A stretch of 40,756 nt of DNA. Source: a virus. The stretch lies in the IMG/VR virus record IMGVR_UViG_3300031825_000035, positions 1 to 40,756 of that record; one strand, written 5' to 3'. Of this stretch, positions 5,864 to 40,756 are shown in pieces; position 1 is the first letter of the stretch, and every line of letters starts with the position of its first letter. The notes beneath the pieces were generated by a model. It was not told where the DNA came from. It did no database searches and worked only from the letters and a program-made list of their open reading frames with translations. A program made the translations under genes and the position numbers.

Positions 5864-6340
5864 TTAAAACTCATGGCCACAAGCTGGACAGGTTGTTTTC
5901 TTTGCGTCTTCCTCGGTCTCGTCCTCGAGAGATGGTTTGTCCTCCTCTTGCTCAGGTAACCAATCCTCGGGAAACCCCCAATCAAGAAGGGTTTCTATCT
6001 CATGATCAGCAGATAGCATATCAAAATCAAACTCACCGTAGGGCAGGTTATCGCGCACATTGATGCGCTTGAACTCCTCTTCCTCTAGCAATCGATCTGG
6101 CATGAGGACAGTTATCTTATCACTTGGTTTAAAGCCTGCTTCTTTAAGGGCTTTTTTGCGCTGATGCCCACCTATAATCGTGTAATCTTTGTTAACGATC
6201 AGGCGTTGATGATAGCCGTCCTCTTTAAGGCTTCTTACAAGGTGGGCATACTGATCTTTCTTTATGCGCCGTGGGTTTCTGTCGTAATCCTTTAGCTCTT
6301 TAAGGGGAACTTCGTATTCCGTCCAGGTTATACTCATCAT
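5864..6340 (-). CDS. ParB/Srx-fold protein with C-terminal zinc-ribbon half
   Basis: This 158-aa protein has the ParB N-terminal fold. YEVPLKELKDYDRNPRRI is the usual opening, and IIGGHQRKKALKEAG (about residues 56-70) corresponds to the family's nucleotide-binding box. The end is very acidic and closes with CPACGHEF, half of a zinc ribbon. Such proteins are often encoded just before phage DNA methyltransferases, as here. It lacks the HTH of a true partition protein and there is no ParA, so plasmid partition is unlikely. It begins with ATGATG, overlapping the upstream stop by 4 bp (ATGA). Confidence 0.8.
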   Translation of the reverse strand: MMSITWTEYEVPLKELKDYDRNPRRIKKDQYAHLVRSLKEDGYHQRLIVNKDYTIIGGHQRKKALKEAGFKPSDKITVLMPDRLLEEEEFKRINVRDNLPYGEFDFDMLSADHEIETLLDWGFPEDWLPEQEEDKPSLEDETEEDAKKTTCPACGHEF

Positions 6341-6945
6341 TGATTTCCAAGTTCTGTGTCATACTTTTTGTTTATCATCTCTTCCATGAAAGGTTTATAC
6401 TCCTTCACTTTTTCAGTGATCCACTCCAGATATCTATTCAGTGTTTTTATGTCTTTTTCCCTGTCTGTCTTAAATTTCCCTTTATAACCTACAATCGCTC
6501 CCACTATGTTTTGAAATAAGGAGTCTAAAATAGCCGTGACAACGGTGTCTAAATGCTCCTCGTCTTTTACGACATGGTTGATTTCTTTAATAAGTTCAGG
6601 TAATGCTTCCTTATTAAACCCAACATAGGGCCTATATTTCTTACATACGTTTTTAATTAGATGATTTCTTGCTCTCAGGATGTAGTTTAAATTTTTTAAA
6701 ATAATGTGGTCAACTTTAAATATTTCTTGCTCTTCTTCTGTTAGATTACCCTTTAAACAACAATCTAACGCGTGGTCGATTTGGTTTGACAAAAGCCCTT
6801 CTATCATAGAATCCATCGAAAAATTATCTGGGAGTTCATCACTGATTTTATCTATGATTTTTTTACAACCATTGCGCATTTTTTCGCAATCTTCTTTTGA
6901 TATTTCTACCTCTTCATTTTCCATATCTTTTTGATTATTAGTCAT
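6337..6945 (-). CDS. Hypothetical helical protein in the early leftward operon
   Basis: This 202-aa protein is not recognised. An in-frame ATG at 6984 exists, but I chose 6945 (MTNNQKDMENEEV) because GGAG lies 7 nt upstream and the start then just overlaps the previous stop. The sequence is highly charged and helical, with several Cys in the N-terminal half and a C-terminal stretch KGKFKTDREKDIKTLNRYLEW. There is no membrane segment or signal peptide. Four-base overlap with the ParB-like gene shows it belongs to the same operon. Confidence 0.7.
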   Translation of the reverse strand: MTNNQKDMENEEVEISKEDCEKMRNGCKKIIDKISDELPDNFSMDSMIEGLLSNQIDHALDCCLKGNLTEEEQEIFKVDHIILKNLNYILRARNHLIKNVCKKYRPYVGFNKEALPELIKEINHVVKDEEHLDTVVTAILDSLFQNIVGAIVGYKGKFKTDREKDIKTLNRYLEWITEKVKEYKPFMEEMINKKYDTELGNQ

Positions 6946-7678
6946 TTTTTTTCTCCAATCCCATTCGGTTTCTTCTTGGTTCAACTGTTAACGCTTTTTC
7001 AAAGGACCATTTAGCGGTTTTAATTCTGCTATAGAAGCAGTTATATGATATTTTTTTCTCTACCAGCCATTCCCTCACTGTTTTAGTGACCCCTTCTAAA
7101 GTGACAAGTTTGGCGGAAATCGTGCCCGCAGGGATAAATTTTCTGTCTGTAAGAAGAGATTCGTCTATCTTATAGATAGAATAGCCTAGGTGACTTGAAG
7201 AAAGGGGCGTTATATAATAACCGTAGGGGATGATTTTTTGATTGATTAGACACCTTTGGGATTTTATTATGTTGAACTTTTCTTTTGACGTTTGAGAGGT
7301 TTTCTCTAGATGTGCGCTGGGTTTATTACGGTAAAGGTAATGAAAAACCCTATCGCTGTTTGTAAAGTTACCGTGGTTATAGACCAAAAACATAAACATC
7401 TCGAATTGATAGGGGGTAAGCGAGACGGATCCTTTATCAAAGGTAACAATCCCGTCCTGGGCGGATTTGATGCCAAGTTCCTTAAGGTTATCTAGCTCTT
7501 TTTGCCTCCTTACGGCTTCTTGCTTATCATGGTGAGATTTTTCTAAAACTTTTGATAAGGTAGGATAATATTTTTCCTGGACCTCATCGAAAGCGTTTTC
7601 ATACTCCTGCCTTAAAGAAGATAGAAGGCTCTCTATTTTCAGCACCTGATTTTTTTTAATATTATCAATATCTATCAT
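6938..7678 (-). CDS. OmpR/PhoB-type winged-helix regulator with extra C-terminal domain
   Basis: This 246-aa protein has a helical N-terminus (residues 1-65, coiled-coil-like) and then a winged-helix domain of the response-regulator C-terminal type: GIVTFDKGSVSLTPYQFEMFMFLVYNHGN, followed by a helix and the wing strand HLGYSIYKI. There is no receiver domain. The C-terminal section (TLEGVTKTVREWLVEKKISYNCFYSRIKTAKWSFEKAL) resembles a small HTH. It lies next to a second, smaller winged-helix gene. In this position, after RusA and before the late genes, it may control late transcription; that is inference. Confidence 0.68.
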   Translation of the reverse strand: MIDIDNIKKNQVLKIESLLSSLRQEYENAFDEVQEKYYPTLSKVLEKSHHDKQEAVRRQKELDNLKELGIKSAQDGIVTFDKGSVSLTPYQFEMFMFLVYNHGNFTNSDRVFHYLYRNKPSAHLEKTSQTSKEKFNIIKSQRCLINQKIIPYGYYITPLSSSHLGYSIYKIDESLLTDRKFIPAGTISAKLVTLEGVTKTVREWLVEKKISYNCFYSRIKTAKWSFEKALTVEPRRNRMGLEKKND

Positions 7679-7680
7679 TA

Positions 7681-8040
7681 TTAAGAAACCTTTTGAACCA
7701 GGCTATAGAAAGCCCTTTCATCCCTATTGATTCTGACATTAAAGCCCTTCAACACCTGATTATTGATTTGGCTGATATTTACGCGAAGGGGATGCACATC
7801 GTCATACTTTAGGCAGCCATATATTTTTTTATAGAACTCAGTTTTATGCAAAAGATTGTTTTTAGATAAAATCATCTCCTCAACTATTCTAAACTTTGTA
7901 GGGGTAAGCCGTACTGACTTATCCCCAACGCAAAGTACTCGAGTTGCGGCATCAATCTTTATGTCTTTGAACTTCTGGCACCCTTCATTTAAGAGGGCTT
8001 GCCTGTCTTTAGGTAGGTCCGTTTTTCCAAGGTTAGTCAT
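7681..8040 (-). CDS. Small OmpR/PhoB-type winged-helix DNA-binding protein
   Basis: This 119-aa protein consists mainly of one winged-helix domain: ATRVLCVGDKSVRLTPTKFRIVEEMILSKNNLLHK is the opening hairpin and first helix, YDDVHPLRVNISQINNQV the recognition helix region, and FNVRINRDERAFYSL the wing. It has no phospho-acceptor domain, so it cannot be a two-component regulator in the usual way. It is 2 bp from the next gene, which carries a similar domain, hinting at duplication or a working pair. It is a good candidate for a phage transcription factor; the target is unknown. Confidence 0.7.
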   Translation of the reverse strand: MTNLGKTDLPKDRQALLNEGCQKFKDIKIDAATRVLCVGDKSVRLTPTKFRIVEEMILSKNNLLHKTEFYKKIYGCLKYDDVHPLRVNISQINNQVLKGFNVRINRDERAFYSLVQKVS

Positions 8041-10945: not shown

Positions 10946-10975
10946 TTGTTAGATTCCTTTTGATGTTAAGTGTCG

Positions 10976-11012
10976 ATAACCGAGGTTTGGTGTGGTTCCC
11001 TGCCTCGGTTAT
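10976..11012. repeat. 10-bp perfect inverted repeat between replication gene and next gene
   Basis: ATAACCGAGG (10976-10985) and CCTCGGTTAT (11003-11012) pair perfectly around a 17-nt loop. There is no T tract on the minus side, so it is not a classical terminator for the leftward transcript; a short T run follows on the plus side. It may be an RNA-processing or stability hairpin. Its left edge contains CGATAACC (10974-10981), the half-site also found at 11829 and 11884. Confidence 0.6.
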
Positions 11013-11031: not shown

Positions 11032-11829
11032 TTAATCCGTTAGCATCCCTTTTTCTTCGGCCGCTATCATGGCATCTATGTACCCATCGGTTAAAGAGGA
11101 CCCAAACCGCTTTAGAAGCTCGTTTGAGTATACCTCTCGGCTAACCTTGGTATCTGAATAATCATCTTCCCAGTGCCCCCCATTAAGCCAGGTTGTGGGG
11201 TTTTTGGTGTATTTTTCGCTGTTCGTCATCTTGAGCATTCGCCCGTAAAGGGCGGCTCTCTCCACAAGGCAATCAAGCGTTACGGATTCCCTTGCCTTAC
11301 AAAATGACTTGTAGGCAGCCAGTTTACCTACCCTTTTCGGATAGAACTGCCACCACTCTTCAAACTCTTTTTCCAAATCTTTTTTTATATTTTTTAAATG
11401 ATGGTTTTTAATGATGGTTTTTAATGATGGTTGGAGTGCATCTCCTGCACCACCCCCTCTCGCATCTCCTGCACCACCCCCTCTCGCATCTCCTGCACCA
11501 GGTGTATCATATGCGGTAGGGTGTACCTCTTCTTCTGGGGCATCTCTTCCAATCCTGTCTACGTTTATGAAAAACACGGCTGCCCTGTGGGTTTTTGGGT
11601 CTTCTTTCCTAACCTTCTTGATGATTCCTTTCCCTATAAGGGAATTCATAGTGTTTTGGATTGTACGGGCAGAAAACCCCGTATCTTTTACTAGCCTGGA
11701 GTACCCAGGATAAATTGAACTGCCGTCGTCAGCCGCAAAATCAGCCAGACGCAATAAAACTGATTTTTCTATACCCGTTAAAAGTCCCGTGTGGTCTTTC
11801 CAAATTAAGCACATAACTTTAATGCTCAC
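11032..11829 (-). CDS. Replication initiator-like protein (lambda O-type layout)
   Basis: This 265-aa protein starts at GTG (AGGGGG 5 nt upstream). Residues 1-95 form a winged HTH typical of phage replication proteins: LTGIEKSVLLRLADFAADDGSSIYPGYSRLVKDTGFSARTIQNTM. A flexible linker follows with repeats of GGGAGDAR (residues 111-131). The C-terminal part EFEEWWQFYPKRVGKLAAYKSF...NPTTWLNGGHWEDD is common in O-like proteins. It should bind the origin and recruit host helicase. The linker-coding DNA consists of tandem repeats that may be the origin itself. No DNA polymerase or helicase is encoded, so replication relies on the host. Confidence 0.8.
   Translation of the reverse strand: MSIKVMCLIWKDHTGLLTGIEKSVLLRLADFAADDGSSIYPGYSRLVKDTGFSARTIQNTMNSLIGKGIIKKVRKEDPKTHRAAVFFINVDRIGRDAPEEEVHPTAYDTPGAGDARGGGAGDARGGGAGDALQPSLKTIIKNHHLKNIKKDLEKEFEEWWQFYPKRVGKLAAYKSFCKARESVTLDCLVERAALYGRMLKMTNSEKYTKNPTTWLNGGHWEDDYSDTKVSREVYSNELLKRFGSSLTDGYIDAMIAAEEKGMLTD
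11398..11432. repeat. 13-bp tandem repeat inside the replication gene (possible origin iterons)
   Basis: ATGATGGTTTTTA occurs at 11398-11410 and 11411-11423, then ATGATGGTT at 11424-11432. Because 13 is not a multiple of three, the repeats are read in different frames (as PSLK, TIIK and NHHLK), so selection seems to act on the DNA rather than the protein. The AT-rich tract at 11371-11397 lies alongside and could be the unwinding element. Confidence 0.75.
11437..11500. repeat. 24-bp tandem repeat inside the replication gene (linker / possible iterons)
   Basis: Units at 11437-11460 and 11461-11484 and a partial unit at 11485-11500 are near identical and GC-rich. In the gene they encode GGGAGDAR, a flexible linker between the HTH and C-terminal domains. 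They lie next to the 13-bp array, in the same relative place as the iterons of oriLambda in gene O. Confidence 0.8.
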
Positions 11830-11889
11830 GATAACCCCCTAAATAATACTTGCATTTTATTATGATTATCGTTATATTGGTAACGATAA
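11829..11889. promoter_or_regulatory. Operator-like 9-bp dyad and nearby half-site
   Basis: TTATCGTTA (11866-11874) and TAACGATAA (11881-11889) are perfect inverted repeats with a 6-bp spacer, centred one turn and a half apart, a usual repressor geometry. A further CGATAACC half-site covers 11829-11836, across the GTG start and SD of the replication gene, and another is at 10974-10981. The dyad overlaps a possible + strand promoter. The binding protein is not known. Confidence 0.65.
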
Positions 11890-11905
11890 CCCGTTTTCTG
11901 ATAGT
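11877..11905 (+). promoter_or_regulatory. Possible promoter for a short antisense RNA
   Basis: TTGGTA (11877-11882), 17 bp, then GATAGT (11900-11905) gives a plausible sigma70 pair at four of six matches each. A start near 11912 would read into the hairpin and T tract ending at 11960. The -35 overlaps the TTATCGTTA dyad, so this promoter could be repressible. Confidence 0.35.
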
Positions 11906-11911
11906 ACACTT

Positions 11912-11960
11912 CAATTTTAAAGGGCGTTTGTCCATAGTGGCAAGTGCCCTTTAATTTTTT
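11912..11960 (+). ncRNA. Candidate ~50-nt antisense RNA over the leader of the replication gene
   Basis: TTAAAGGGC (11917-11925) and GCCCTTTAA (11946-11954) form a perfect 9-bp stem; the loop can add TTG/CAA and CCA/TGG pairs. TTTTTT follows on the + strand, making a rho-independent terminator. No rightward gene ends here, so the terminator needs another explanation. A short RNA from 11912 would be complementary to the first 45 or so nt of the leftward replication transcript, whose start is predicted near 11956. This layout resembles antisense copy control in plasmids or lambda OOP. Expression is not shown by sequence. Confidence 0.4.
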
Positions 11961-11962
11961 CT

Positions 11963-11990
11963 ATTCTAAATCTTCCCCCCCTCCAGTCAA
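11963..11990 (-). promoter_or_regulatory. Leftward promoter of the replication gene
   Basis: On the minus strand TTGACT (11990-11985) and TAGAAT (11968-11963) are 16 bp apart, each five of six to consensus. The start would be near 11956, giving a leader of about 127 nt that begins with the 11917-11954 hairpin. The first TGTCNGACA site (11998) lies just upstream of the -35. Confidence 0.6.
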
Positions 11991-11997
11991 GATAAAC

Positions 11998-12070
11998 TGT
12001 CAGACACCGTCTTTAATAGGTCGGACAGAAACCCCATTTTGTCGGACCTAAACGCCGTTTTTGTCTGACT
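11998..12070. promoter_or_regulatory. Cluster of four TGTCNGACA sites, 21-22 bp apart
   Basis: The sites are TGTCAGACA (11998-12006, perfect), GGTCGGACA (12019-12027), TGTCGGACC (12040-12048) and TGTCTGACT (12062-12070). Starts are 21, 21 and 22 bp apart, two helical turns, so a bound protein would sit on one face of the DNA. They lie upstream of the leftward promoter. They could be operators or activator sites, or replication iterons. Confidence 0.8.
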
Positions 12071-12125
12071 CTAAAATTGATCTCTAAATCTTAAAAAATA
12101 CCCTTTAAAAACTGCGCAAATGATA

Positions 12126-12155
12126 TTGATAAATTTAAGAAATTTAAAATATTAG
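12126..12155 (+). promoter_or_regulatory. Rightward promoter of the recombination operon
   Basis: TTGATA (12126-12131) and TATTAG (12150-12155) are separated by 18 bp in an AT-rich stretch between the two TGTCNGACA clusters. A start near 12162 would place the three-copy cluster in the 5' leader, where a bound protein could block initiation or elongation. Confidence 0.45.
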
Positions 12156-12182
12156 ACACTCTTGAAATTCTATTCTATCGTT

Positions 12183-12245
12183 TTTATGTCAGACATTAAT
12201 AAGTTTATGTCAGACATTAATAAGTTTATGTCGGACCTTAAGGAG
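12183..12245. promoter_or_regulatory. Three 21-bp tandem repeats carrying TGTCNGACA
   Basis: Units 12183-12203 and 12204-12224 are identical; the third (12225-12245) diverges after its GTC and merges into the AAGGAGG ribosome site of the exonuclease gene. The sites are at 12187-12195 and 12208-12216 (both perfect) and 12229-12237 (TGTCGGACC). They lie about 125 bp, six repeat lengths, from the last site of the upstream cluster. Confidence 0.85.
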
Positions 12246-12256
12246 GATAAAAGTAG

Positions 12257-13165
12257 ATGTTAACACCCGAACAATTAGAAGAGAGAAGGACAGGCATAGG
12301 CGGGTCGGATGTGGCTGCCATAGCAGGTATCTCAAACTTTAATAAAAGCCCCCTAGATGTGTACTTAGAAAAAATTGGGGAAAAGAGTGGGTTTGAGGGA
12401 AATGACTACACTGATTGGGGAAACAGGCTAGAGCCAGTAGTTGCCGAGAGATACGCAGAGATTACAGGCAAAAAAATATATAAGCCAAGCCTATTTAGGC
12501 ACCCTGAACATAAGTTTATGCTCGCTAACATGGACTTCTTAATAGAGGGAGAAAATGCCGCTATTGAATGTAAGACCACCAGTGCTTATCAGGCAAGCAA
12601 ATGGGGAGAGCCTGGCACGGATGAGGTGCCCACAGACTGCCTTATGCAAGTTGCACACTATAGATATGCAAAGAACCTGGACTATATAGACATCCCTGTT
12701 CTTATAGGGGGTAATGATTTCAGGGTATACAGATACGAGAAAAATACGAGATTAGAAGAGCAGGTTCTAAATCTTGAGTTTAACTTTTGGTATAACCACG
12801 TTGAAAAACGTATACCCCCACAACCAGGGGAATTAGACAAGGCTATTAAGCTGTGGCCAAAGGCGCAAGATGAGAAGGTTGCTGTAGCTTCTGAAGAAGT
12901 GATTGACGCCATCAGGCTATACAACTCAACGAAGAATTCCATAAAAGAGCTTGAAGAGAAAGAGCAAAAATATAAGGAGGAAATATGCAGGGTCTTACAA
13001 AACGCTGCCATCCTTATAGATTCAGAAGGCTCTCAAATTGCCACATGGAAAAATCAAGAGACTCTTAGGCTCGATCAAACGACTCTTAAGAAAGAGTATC
13101 CCCAAATCTACAAGACCCTTTGTAAACCCTCGGTGAGCAGATTCTTACGAATAAAGGGCATCTAA
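12257..13165 (+). CDS. YqaJ-type viral exonuclease (lambda-exo-like)
   Basis: This 302-aa exonuclease should degrade one strand at DNA ends to expose ssDNA for RecT. The PD-(D/E)XK core is visible: GNRLEPVVAERYAE (residues 55-68), Asp93 in NMDFLI, IECKTTS with Glu104 and Lys106, and MQVAHYRYA (130-138) with the family's Gln. The N-terminal RRTGIGGSDVAAIAGIS is also a YqaJ hallmark. The C-terminal part is a coiled coil and tail. It is the first gene of the rightward operon; AAGGAGG, 11 nt upstream, abuts the third 21-bp repeat. Confidence 0.93.
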   Translation: MLTPEQLEERRTGIGGSDVAAIAGISNFNKSPLDVYLEKIGEKSGFEGNDYTDWGNRLEPVVAERYAEITGKKIYKPSLFRHPEHKFMLANMDFLIEGENAAIECKTTSAYQASKWGEPGTDEVPTDCLMQVAHYRYAKNLDYIDIPVLIGGNDFRVYRYEKNTRLEEQVLNLEFNFWYNHVEKRIPPQPGELDKAIKLWPKAQDEKVAVASEEVIDAIRLYNSTKNSIKELEEKEQKYKEEICRVLQNAAILIDSEGSQIATWKNQETLRLDQTTLKKEYPQIYKTLCKPSVSRFLRIKGI

Positions 13166-13375: not shown

Positions 13376-13591
13376 ATGCAAAACACACCACTAAAGCTTG
13401 TGATTGACCACGATAAAGCGGGCATCACGCCTTTCGAATTTGAAGACCGCCTTATGAAACGGTATGACAAAAACTTGTTTTTGTCTGACAGAAACGGAAA
13501 CAGGGGAAGCCTAGATTATTTTAAGTATGCGGTCGCTGCGGCGCAGCTACTTCATGAACTCACCCGCAAAGAAAAAGGAAGCATACAATGA
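13376..13591 (+). CDS. Small hypothetical protein before RecT
   Basis: This 71-aa protein starts MQNTPLKLVIDHDKAGITPFEF, preceded by AAGGAGG. It ends by overlapping the RecT start by 4 bp (ATGA). There is no known domain. The coding DNA contains a perfect TGTCTGACA at 13482-13490, the same 9-mer as in the control region. Confidence 0.68.
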   Translation: MQNTPLKLVIDHDKAGITPFEFEDRLMKRYDKNLFLSDRNGNRGSLDYFKYAVAAAQLLHELTRKEKGSIQ

Positions 13592-14454
13592 CAACACAGC
13601 TTATCACCACCCAGCCAATGACCTCCAGGCAATGGCTAGAGAGTCCAGATTTTAAGACAACCTTAAAGAACATATTGCCTTGCCAGATAAGTCCTGATCG
13701 ATTTATTAGGATTGCCTTAACGGAACTCAGGAAGGTCCCTAAGCTGAATGACTGCACCCCTGCATCTTTTATAGGGGCCATCTTACAGTGTGGGCAGTTA
13801 GGTTTAGAGATAGGCAGTTCCTTGGGCCATGTTTACCTAATTCCCTTTGAAAACTACAAAACAAAGAAGGTCGAGTGTCAATTCATTATAGGGTACCGAG
13901 GAATGATATACCTGGCCAGACGCTCAGGCCATATCATCAGCATCCCCCGCATTGTAAATAGTAATGACACGTTTGAATACGAATACGGGCTTGAAGAAAA
14001 GCTAAGGCATATCCCCGCTTCTTCTAATCGGGGTGAAATGACCTATGTCTATGTATGGACAAAGTTTGGAAAAGACGGGGACAAATTTTTTGAAGTCTTG
14101 TCTTATGAAGAGGTGAGAGAAATTATGTCCTCTTCAAAGGGTTCTAAAAGTGGTCCCTGGCAAACTCATTTTGAAGAGATGGCAAAAAAGACGGCGATAC
14201 GACGCCTCTTTAAATACCTGCCCGTTAGCCCAGAACTTCAAAAGGCGATTGCTTTAGACGAGGAAGCCGAAAGAGGCGAGCAGGATAATTCTATTATTAT
14301 TGACCAAGAACCTATAACCGGAGAGCCTGAAGAAAAACAATCGATGTCTGCCAAGGTTTCCGATTTCTTAGAAAAAAGAAACCCTACACCGGAAAAAAAC
14401 TTTGCCGTTATAGATGACCCGCTAGAGCAAGACCATGCACCTCAAGCGACGTAA
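13588..14454 (+). CDS. recT: RecT-type single-strand annealing protein
   Basis: This 288-aa protein anneals complementary ssDNA and pairs with the upstream exonuclease. The RecT core is plain: FIRIALTELRKVPKLNDCTPASFIGAILQCGQLGLEIGSSLGHVYLIPF, then IIGYRGMIYLARRSG and a later MAKKTAIRRLFKYLPVS, the family's conserved C-terminal block. The C-terminal 60 residues are acidic and variable, as in other members. The gene overlaps the next by 20 bp. Confidence 0.95.
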   Translation: MTTQLITTQPMTSRQWLESPDFKTTLKNILPCQISPDRFIRIALTELRKVPKLNDCTPASFIGAILQCGQLGLEIGSSLGHVYLIPFENYKTKKVECQFIIGYRGMIYLARRSGHIISIPRIVNSNDTFEYEYGLEEKLRHIPASSNRGEMTYVYVWTKFGKDGDKFFEVLSYEEVREIMSSSKGSKSGPWQTHFEEMAKKTAIRRLFKYLPVSPELQKAIALDEEAERGEQDNSIIIDQEPITGEPEEKQSMSAKVSDFLEKRNPTPEKNFAVIDDPLEQDHAPQAT

Positions 14455-14791
14455 TCTAGAGATATATGGCTTATACAAGGAGGGCATCAGCGTAAGGGAA
14501 CTCTCAGAAAAATACCAACGCAGTTATAACGTCATCAAGGGAATCATAGACCATATAAAAGGTTGCGAAGAAATATTCGCTTCATATTCTTCTATAGAAC
14601 TTGAGATACCTATTGAGTTTTGGTCGATGTCTATCGATAAGGCTACCTTGACCGCCTTGAAGAAGGCCCACATATATAAGCTGCGTGACTTGGTTGATTT
14701 ATCCGATGAGGAGATAGCCAGCATCAAAGGGGTTGGCTTAAATCGGGCAGGGCAGATTATAAGATGTATAGAGAAATTCAAGGGAAGTTGA
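14435..14791 (+). CDS. HTH protein with RNA polymerase alpha-CTD-like helix-hairpin-helix end
   Basis: This 118-aa protein has two recognisable halves. Residues 1-40 (LKRRNLEIYGLYKEGISVRELSEKYQRSYNVIKGII) look like a homeodomain-type HTH. Residues 70-118 (TALKKAHIYKLRDLVDLSDEEIASIKGVGLNRAGQII) follow the fold pattern of the C-terminal domain of RNA polymerase alpha, with the helix-hairpin-helix IKGVGLNRAG. It overlaps recT by 20 bp. Both halves should bind DNA. It could be a phage transcription factor or a recombination accessory. The alpha-CTD likeness is by eye. Confidence 0.68.
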   Translation: MHLKRRNLEIYGLYKEGISVRELSEKYQRSYNVIKGIIDHIKGCEEIFASYSSIELEIPIEFWSMSIDKATLTALKKAHIYKLRDLVDLSDEEIASIKGVGLNRAGQIIRCIEKFKGS

Positions 14792-14845: not shown

Positions 14846-15151
14846 ATGGGAAGACCAAAAAAAGAAAGGCCCGAAGGCGTTGATTTAAAGCCGTGGACCA
14901 TACGGGAAGTATCAAATGAGGCACGTAACGCCGCCAGAATTGGGGCAAAAAAAGAAGGCAAGTCTCTGGGGCAATGGGTTGAAGCATCTATCCTTAACTC
15001 TCTTAAAAAGTCTACCAACCAAAAGACGGAGGTTTCCAACCCTGCGGACGTGGTCGATGTTGTAAAATTACTGTCAGACAAAATCGACAAATTGTCAGGC
15101 GAGATTAACGAGATTAATAAGCCCTGGTGGGATAAAATTAGGGGTAAATGA
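14846..15151 (+). CDS. Ribbon-helix-helix-like DNA-binding protein
   Basis: This 101-aa protein starts MGRPKKERPEGVDLKPWTIREVS. Residues 18-55 (TIREVSNEARNAARIGAKKEGKSLGQWVEASIL) have the strand-helix-helix pattern of Arc/MetJ-type proteins. A low-complexity linker and short C-terminal helix follow. It is a candidate repressor or antirepressor for an early promoter. A perfect TGTCAGACA (15072-15080) lies in its coding DNA. Its stop overlaps the next start (ATGATG). Confidence 0.65.
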   Translation: MGRPKKERPEGVDLKPWTIREVSNEARNAARIGAKKEGKSLGQWVEASILNSLKKSTNQKTEVSNPADVVDVVKLLSDKIDKLSGEINEINKPWWDKIRGK

Positions 15152-17634: not shown

Positions 17635-17793
17635 GTGGGTGAGGAAAAAGAAAAAATAGAGGTTATCGGGAAAGCTACCGAAATTTTTATGCAGATGGAT
17701 GTTGTTGACATTATTGATGCTCTGATCTTATCCCTCCAAATTTATAAAGAGAAAATCCTGAGACTGAATATAGGGGACGTAAGGGATGATTGA
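17635..17793 (+). CDS. Small hypothetical protein in frame after the amber stop
   Basis: From GTG at 17635 the frame reads 52 aa, beginning MGEEKEKIEVIGKATEIFMQ and including the hydrophobic stretch DVVDIIDALILSLQIY. No clear ribosome site precedes the GTG. The same frame carries the upstream gene, separated only by TAG plus three codons. Its stop overlaps the next start by 8 bp, which supports its being translated. It could also be the C-terminal part of the 17365 gene. Confidence 0.45.
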   Translation: MGEEKEKIEVIGKATEIFMQMDVVDIIDALILSLQIYKEKILRLNIGDVRDD

Positions 17794-18560: not shown

Positions 18561-19154
18561 ATGGCCGCTTACAAGCCCGTCGGACGAAAAACCAATGAAG
18601 AGTTACGACCTCGTGAGCACCTTTATGAACATGAGATCGATAAATTAATAGAAGCAGCTCGGGGAAGACGCCACTACATACGAGATCAGGCATTAATATT
18701 AACGGCCTATAGGCACGCCTTGAGACCAGCCGAAGCCTGCGGCCTCACTTGGAAACAAATTTGTTTTGAGACAAACCGAATCATGGTCAAGCGTGCTAAG
18801 AACGGGGTTGGAGGAGAGCAATGTATAGAGGATAGGGAGATACGGTATCTAAAACGCCTTCTTAAAGAGAAAGAAAAGAAAAAGTGCGCCTCTCCTTATG
18901 TTTTCGTCTCTGCAAAGGGTGGCCCTCTAAGCGTATGCGGATTTAATGACTTAATCGAAATCCTCGGGAAAAAAGCAGGGATAGAATTTAAGGTTCACCC
19001 CCACATGCTGCGCCACTCATGGGGATATAAGGCCGTTAACAATAATGTAAGCTTAAGAAGAATGCAGGTGTATCTAGGGCATAAGTGCATTACCAATACC
19101 ACAAGATACCTAGCTGTGGAGGCCATGGACTTTTCAGAGATGTTTAACAGTTAA
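18561..19154 (+). CDS. Short tyrosine recombinase (FimB/FimE-sized integrase)
   Basis: This 197-aa site-specific DNA recombinase has the complete catalytic set: Arg55 (RPAEAC), Lys80 as likely beta-hairpin lysine, His148 and Arg151 (HMLRH), His174 (LGHKC) and Tyr183 (TRYLA). It lacks the N-terminal core-binding domain of normal phage integrases, which are about 350-400 aa, and so resembles FimB/FimE inversion enzymes and short XerC-like proteins. It could integrate the genome, resolve dimers or invert a segment. An AGGA site precedes the ATG. The spacer on its 3' side has repeated motifs that may be its sites. Confidence 0.9.
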   Translation: MAAYKPVGRKTNEELRPREHLYEHEIDKLIEAARGRRHYIRDQALILTAYRHALRPAEACGLTWKQICFETNRIMVKRAKNGVGGEQCIEDREIRYLKRLLKEKEKKKCASPYVFVSAKGGPLSVCGFNDLIEILGKKAGIEFKVHPHMLRHSWGYKAVNNNVSLRRMQVYLGHKCITNTTRYLAVEAMDFSEMFNS

Positions 19155-40606: not shown

Positions 40607-40756
40607 TTAAGAAACCATCTTTCTGATTTGATCGCGTAGCTCTCTGTGGTATCTAAAGTTCGCAGTTTCCCCATTACTTCTAATGTCTTTGGTGGGGTCG
40701 ACCTTCCAAACAACGACGTCGATATCGTCTTTATTCTTTGCCTCAAAAGGGGAGGT
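40607..40756 (-). CDS. Small acidic protein, 3' part (second copy of the junction gene)
   Basis: The frame enters from the right end, continues the protein that starts at 247, and ends IRKMVS with TAA at 40607-40609 (a second TAA follows). Only 20 bp are not already present in the left copy. The T at 40735 gives Asn where the left copy gives Asp. Confidence 0.8.
   Translation of the reverse strand, partial: TSPFEAKNKDDIDVVVWKVDPTKDIRSNGETANFRYHRELRDQIRKMVS
40627..40756. repeat. Terminal overlap, right copy (circle junction)
   Basis: It matches bases 1-130 except at 40735, so the genome closes at 40626/1. Confidence 0.93.

Follow-up and report, generated by a model that had tools for sequence, protein, structure and literature searches.

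A phased array of GTCNGAC palindromes between divergent phage operons, with a ribbon-helix-helix protein as its candidate reader

Which protein reads the array of phased palindromes that lies between the divergent rep and yqaJ-recT operons of this phage? The window, i.e. the whole stretch of 40,756 nucleotides analysed here, is an IMG/VR virus record whose first ~130 bases (1–130) are repeated at its end (40627–40756; the first 100 bases exactly), and with this direct terminal repeat the record probably represents an entire genome of about 40.6 kb that is terminally redundant or was assembled as a circle. Leftward from the array run rep (from 11829), RusA-like, ParB-like and methylase genes, terminase and portal genes and then structural genes across the record ends, and rightward run yqaJ (from 12257), recT, two regulators and a short tyrosine recombinase. 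The names of rep, yqaJ, recT and the recombinase come from searches, and the remaining gene names are our reading of the translations. The recombinase (18561–19154) has only 197 aa, is essentially a catalytic domain (Phage_integrase 20–187) and resembles the short FimB-type enzymes.

The array and its control region

The control region and the genes that border it contain the following features:

11032..11829, minus strand: gene for an O-like replication initiator, which opens the leftward operon; repeats within the gene are the likely origin
11917..11954, no strand assigned (T run on the plus strand): 16-pair hairpin with a T tail between the array and rep; terminator or leader element
11963..11990, minus strand: best leftward promoter-like match, TTGACT-16-TAGAAT, 10 of 12 consensus positions; a consensus match alone
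11998..12070, no strand assigned: left operator cluster, four GTCNGAC sites (steps of 21, 21 and 22 bp) with identical cores and flanks at chance identity
12071..12186, no strand assigned: AT-rich core between the clusters, 116 bp, 22% GC, with weak promoter-like matches; candidate site of divergent promoters
12183..12245, plus strand: right operator cluster, 2.8 copies of the 21-bp unit TTTATGTCAGACATTAATAAG, with three sites (12187–12237)
12257..13165, plus strand: gene for a YqaJ/RecE-like exonuclease, which opens the rightward operon behind the array

All seven palindromes of the original prediction were found, at 11998, 12019, 12040, 12062, 12187, 12208 and 12229, and three of them (11998, 12187 and 12208) are, as it had held, perfect copies of TGTCNGACA. 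Each of the other four carries a single mismatch, in the outer base only, so that the GTCNGAC core is intact in all seven. Successive sites are 21, 21, 22, 125, 21 and 21 bp apart; the proposal that they share one helical face agrees both with the steps inside the clusters and with the 125-bp gap, which corresponds to about 12 turns.

The right cluster consists of two identical 21-bp units plus one 81% copy, the last copy extending into the AAGGAGG before yqaJ. This cluster is a recent tandem duplication; its three sites are therefore not independent and prove little by themselves. The left cluster has a core identity of 1.00 and a flank identity of 0.32 (about chance), and identical cores within flanks of chance-level identity are the pattern expected from selection on the palindrome.

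There are 15 sites with at most one mismatch in the window vs 9.0 in shuffled sequences, a number that 6 of 100 shuffles reach and that is thus weak evidence on its own, the strong part being the clustering. Among the 64 palindromes of the form N3-N-N3', GTCNGAC is the most over-represented in the genome (15 vs 4.4, P = 6e-5), and the site pattern read backwards, without complementing, has no occurrence in the window. A de novo search for palindromes at 20–22-bp steps returned a run of four at the array, and 200 dinucleotide shuffles yielded two runs of three and no run of four. In a similar phasing scan of ~170 related loci, this array and one 10-bp repeat elsewhere were flagged. As a prediction from sequence, an operator array at this position is close to certain.

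The seven sites give a near-palindromic extended consensus, TGTTTATGTCAGACATAAACA. The two further perfect copies that had been reported inside genes of the rightward operon are indeed present there, and in a scan with the extended consensus, for which neither was used in training, both outscore several members of the array:

13482..13490, plus strand: perfect site inside the open reading frame 13376–13591, ~100 bp before recT; score 22.2, third best in the genome and outside the training set; auxiliary operator candidate
15072..15080, plus strand: perfect site inside the ribbon-helix-helix (RHH) gene; score 18.4; auxiliary operator candidate

Judged by their scores and their common operon, these two intragenic sites look like genuine members of the set.

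An AT-rich core with a rightward promoter had also been predicted; the core stood, the promoter proved to be a weak match. The number of promoter-like matches in the region is near the shuffle expectation (6 vs 3.6 ± 1.8). A promoter at TTGACT-16-TAGAAT would place the centres of the left-cluster sites near -46, -67, -88 and -110, all upstream, whereas a leftward promoter inside the AT-rich core would put the same sites downstream as a block; because the matches barely exceed those in shuffles, neither placement is established. No recognised plus-strand gene reads into the hairpin at 11917–11954, which is a candidate leader attenuator or small-RNA terminator. Another word, CGATAACC, is found at 11829–11836, 11884–11891, 10974–10981, 6046–6053 and 17661–17668 (5 vs 0.8 expected; 0 of 100 shuffles reach 5) and near rep forms the inverted repeat TTATCGTTA-N6-TAACGATAA. 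These copies are possibly a second operator set for another regulator.

Regulators of the phage and the candidate reader

Downstream of yqaJ, the rightward operon encodes the following:

13588..14454, plus strand: RecT annealing protein gene
14435..14791, plus strand: gene for a helix-turn-helix (HTH) fused to a helix-hairpin-helix like that of the RNA polymerase alpha CTD, the second regulator of the operon and the rival binder
14846..15151, plus strand: gene for the candidate array-binding RHH protein, 101 aa, with a KPWTIREV strand, homologues at GTCNGAC clusters and weak Arc-like fold matches

The fusion in the product of 14435–14791 is unusual. Elsewhere in the genome, two adjacent genes (6938–7678 and 7681–8040) show similarity to OmpR/PhoB-type winged-helix proteins and lack a receiver domain. 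No CI-like or XRE repressor was found among the regulators and unknown proteins scanned, and the gap between the clusters holds no CI-like HTH repressor gene, just the AT-rich core.

That the array is a cooperative operator for a regulator of the phage, as originally predicted, is supported by our analysis, which singles out the RHH protein, one of four binders it had named, by co-occurrence with the sites in independent replicons. The RHH gene belongs to the array's own rightward operon and lies 2.6 kb from the array, not adjacent to it. Its product is predicted to have helices at residues 19–36 and 41–56 following an N-terminal PWTIR segment. Foldseek placed Arc at the top of the PDB matches, with PutA, AmrZ and NikA lower down (all weak, E > 1), and the best Pfam match was to the FitA-like RHH model (weak, E = 0.15). 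On these models, an RHH fold is likely. At the thresholds used, the protein has no match in PHROGs or PDB and has sub-threshold ones in Pfam and NCBIfam; no homologues were found among 50,697 phage records, nor in a search of viral contigs with the RHH alignment.

Conservation of the spaced sites in related phages had been expected. Relatives of the window by capsid protein are numerous, and a phased site pair occurred in 0 of 37 capsid relative records; the relatives fetched do not carry the RHH family of the window, so that conservation among them is the wrong criterion. The expectation thus failed for the capsid relatives; GTCNGAC clusters occur instead in several replicons that bear the RHH. 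Locus L244, a relative with the same order of rep, array region and yqaJ-recT, has a different RHH-like gene, zero GTCNGAC in its 16.8 kb and a control region without the array. The triple phased pattern was found in none of 385 alphaproteobacterial genomes, and the phased pattern in none of seven genomes with capsid homologues. The array thus follows neither the lineage of the capsid nor this class of hosts.

Co-occurrence of the RHH family with GTCNGAC clusters

A tblastn search with the window RHH protein returned homologues in plasmids only, namely those of acetic acid bacteria, one Roseomonas replicon and one Spirosoma plasmid, in segments 38–44% identical that cover at most 54% of the query. 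Each of the first three plasmids opened (NC_016029, NZ_CP062149 and NC_021977) has four GTCNGAC sites directly upstream of the RHH gene; in NC_016029 these four span 91 bp, and all six sites of the 4.6-kb plasmid lie inside ~300 bp. These plasmids suggested the link to the RHH protein and the follow-up loci were fetched afterwards, so that only the later sets and locus L399 (see below) count as tests.

In the Roseomonas phage-plasmid CP099479, GTCNGAC occurs 14 times vs 3.3 expected (rank 1 of 64 palindromes), with three site pairs exactly 21 bp apart and a 40–42-bp series at the RHH gene. A second Roseomonas replicon, NZ_CP147878, which was reached by a search with a plasmid homologue of the window RHH, has three GTCNGAC upstream of its RHH gene; like the first, it is a phage-plasmid with portal, capsid and terminase genes. 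In Spirosoma plasmid pSLIN05, from another phylum, all three GTCNGAC are located no more than 205 bp upstream of the RHH gene. Across nine non-redundant RHH loci, a pool that includes the first plasmid group and is for that reason not wholly blind, the 250 bp upstream contain 15 GTCNGAC vs 0.6 expected (P = 2e-16), the top value of the 64 palindromes; the runner-up has 5 vs 0.8.

The reverse test, a scan of viral contigs for nothing but the site pair, yielded 92 stretches, from which 80 loci were examined. One of the 80 (L399) encodes the RHH family of the window (E = 1e-12); eight of the nine GTCNGAC in its 8.5 kb lie at the RHH gene, and it also bears what we read as a YqaJ-like gene. In a set of 347 loci (3.5 Mb), this family is encoded nowhere but in the window and L399. 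A GTCNGAC cluster at the RHH gene or at the promoter of its operon was found in the window, in the nine-locus test and in L399.

The sites thus track the RHH family in independent replicons, although they are not universal in it. There was no upstream GTCNGAC cluster at the RHH loci of Gluconobacter pAG5 and of a Palleronia plasmid, and chromosomal PodJ-type relatives are without sites. The spacing in several plasmids is 9–13 or 22 bp, not 21, and some of the upstream sites extend into the 5' end of the RHH reading frame. When the Bacteroidota set was used to confirm GTCNGAC, it failed for Hymenobacter, whose family members (LWAIR strand) have no GTCNGAC and carry GTTNAAC/GTANTAC instead, and gave a variant site in Spirosoma pSLIN04 (TWSIR strand). 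In the latter, TGTAAGACA/TGTCTTACA is found shortly before the RHH gene, at 1818, 1839, 1860 and 1881 (21 bp each) and at 1913 and 1925. The architecture looks unchanged here, with another word in it.

Arrays of the same word elsewhere precede other RHH-like genes (loci L088 and L364) and genes that by eye resemble Phd/YefM (loci L086, L340 and L350); the word alone therefore does not name its reader, whereas RHH homology does. The triple phased pattern has 20 matches in viral contigs; this number is not evidence, as many of the matches are heptad repeats that lie in frame within coding sequence. In the literature searched, we found no description of such an array, of this RHH family or of this word, TGTCNGACA being found in none of the papers; the three papers with TGTCAGACA and 'operator', and those listed for other words, appear by their titles to be unrelated.

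Proposed mechanism and other readings

Given that distant relatives in phages and plasmids adjoin clusters of this word or of one much like it, the RHH protein is the most likely reader, and we consider it probable that the array is a two-cluster operator read by the phage's own RHH protein (14846–15151). Binding of the array by this protein, its cooperativity, the sign of the regulation and any role in the maintenance of lysogeny are steps that we infer as follows. Dimers of the Arc/MetJ type would bind each TGTCNGACA palindrome through the N-terminal KPWTIREV strand and, with neighbouring sites two helical turns apart, would all sit on the same face of the DNA, where their binding would be cooperative. 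The right cluster would span the region from the likely rightward transcription start to the yqaJ ribosome-binding site, so that its filling should shut off the yqaJ-recT-HTH-RHH operon. The RHH operon would then be under negative autoregulation, to which sites 13482 and 15072, inside genes, perhaps contribute. The left cluster would control the transcription of rep and of the genes that follow it leftward: a promoter in the AT-rich core would be blocked, whereas a TTGACT/TAGAAT promoter, if that is the real one, would be acted on from upstream. With a gap of 125 bp, the clusters would stay nearly in phase and could be bridged.

RHH operator arrays as such are known. Like Arc of phage P22, which also provides the best model fold matches, the candidate is a small RHH protein encoded by a phage, and its N-terminal strand is proposed to contact palindromic operators; unlike in P22, the sites number seven, at 21–22 bp in two clusters, and the RHH gene lies downstream of recombination genes and encodes a long C-terminal helix and a KPWW tail, and the matches to Arc are weak (E > 1). 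The layout recalls lambda OL/OR with CI/Cro, in that palindromic operators spaced by about two helical turns form two clusters, each with three to four of them and each beside one of the divergent early operons, with the recombination genes on one side and an O-like rep on the other, but here there is no repressor gene between the clusters (116 bp only), and the candidate binder is an RHH rather than an HTH protein and is encoded in one of the operons that it would control. RHH dimers of MetJ, omega and CopG fill tandem phased sites cooperatively; those sites are 8-bp metboxes or heptads, whereas the window has a 9-bp palindrome of different sequence every 21 bp. The stand-alone PW[ST][IV][RK] RHH proteins of acetic acid bacteria and of Roseomonas plasmids and phage-plasmids share a homologous RHH domain and the same GTCNGAC clusters beside the gene, but are 22–37% identical overall to the window RHH, with more variable spacing and the gene directly behind the sites.

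The HTH/alpha-CTD-like protein (14435–14791) is an unlikely alternative binder. Bound to the four sites upstream (about -46 to -110), it would activate the leftward operon, and bound to the three downstream, it would turn off the rightward operon that encodes it, in an early-to-late switch. Such a role fits its position in the same rightward operon, the resemblance of its HTH to Mor/C-type late activators (phrog_532, E = 0.002) and of its C-terminal part to the RNA polymerase alpha CTD, and the location of the left cluster upstream of the best leftward promoter match. However, no homologue of this protein was found in phages or viral contigs, and the RHH family accounts for the sites without it.

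The original prediction had also allowed for an iteron array, and a spacing of 21–22 bp with an AT-rich stretch is typical of plasmid iterons. With rep adjoining, the array could then be an iteron-type replication origin or an incompatibility region bound by the rep product, a reading that we now disfavour and regard as very improbable: the sites are palindromic, there is no DnaA box (TTWTNCACA) anywhere in the genome, and repeat blocks sit inside rep, as in lambda O. These are 13-bp (TTTTTAATGATGG, three times) and 24-bp tandem repeats, at 11392–11432 and 11438–11500, and by analogy are likely what is expected for an origin within a lambda O-type gene; no rep homologues were found in viral contigs. 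In addition, the GTCNGAC cluster of NZ_CP062149, which encodes an RHH homologue, is separate from a different 20–21-bp repeat upstream of its rep, the likely Rep iterons. Slightly less probable still is a centromere-like partition array for an RHH protein of the ParG/ParR kind in place of a transcription operator; the family does occur on plasmids and phage-plasmids, and site pairs are dispersed around CP099479, but no ParA-type partner was recognised among the proteins scanned, and the sites lie between divergent promoters and reach the yqaJ ribosome-binding site. A host regulator hijacked by the phage is the least probable binder of all, given the absence of the phased pattern from the bacterial genomes listed above and the fact that the sites track a mobile-element protein.

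Returning to the RHH protein, it is possible that it replaces CI, as the original prediction had suggested for the reader of the array, with a CI-like role in lysogeny. More tentatively, and we would sooner bet against it, the RHH proteins could form one undescribed family, a master switch common to phages, phage-plasmids and small plasmids, with phased arrays and a changeable strand specificity (GTCNGAC, TGTCTTACA and perhaps GTTNAAC), which in this phage would replace CI by silencing both early operons via clusters 125 bp apart. If so, elements with a common GTCNGAC code could repress one another inside one cell, and the presence of the same code on plasmids and phage-plasmids already raises the question of cross-regulation between co-resident elements. 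The analysis links a predicted operator code to an orphan RHH family, whose plasmid members are annotated as 'hypothetical', and provides a concrete candidate repressor for a phage without a recognisable CI.

The same word was also seen beside proteins of other kinds. On viral contigs, arrays of TGTCNGACA at L340 574–603, L350 10299–10352 and L086 284–421 lie ahead of small x-VTVRQ / INVRQ proteins that are Phd/YefM-like by eye, so a second protein type may read it. At L364 5338–5721, likewise on a viral contig, fourteen TGTCNGACA-like sites (at most one mismatch) are spaced at 22 and 31–33 bp beside a gene whose product resembles an RHH protein (PKVSFRLTYEQQ).
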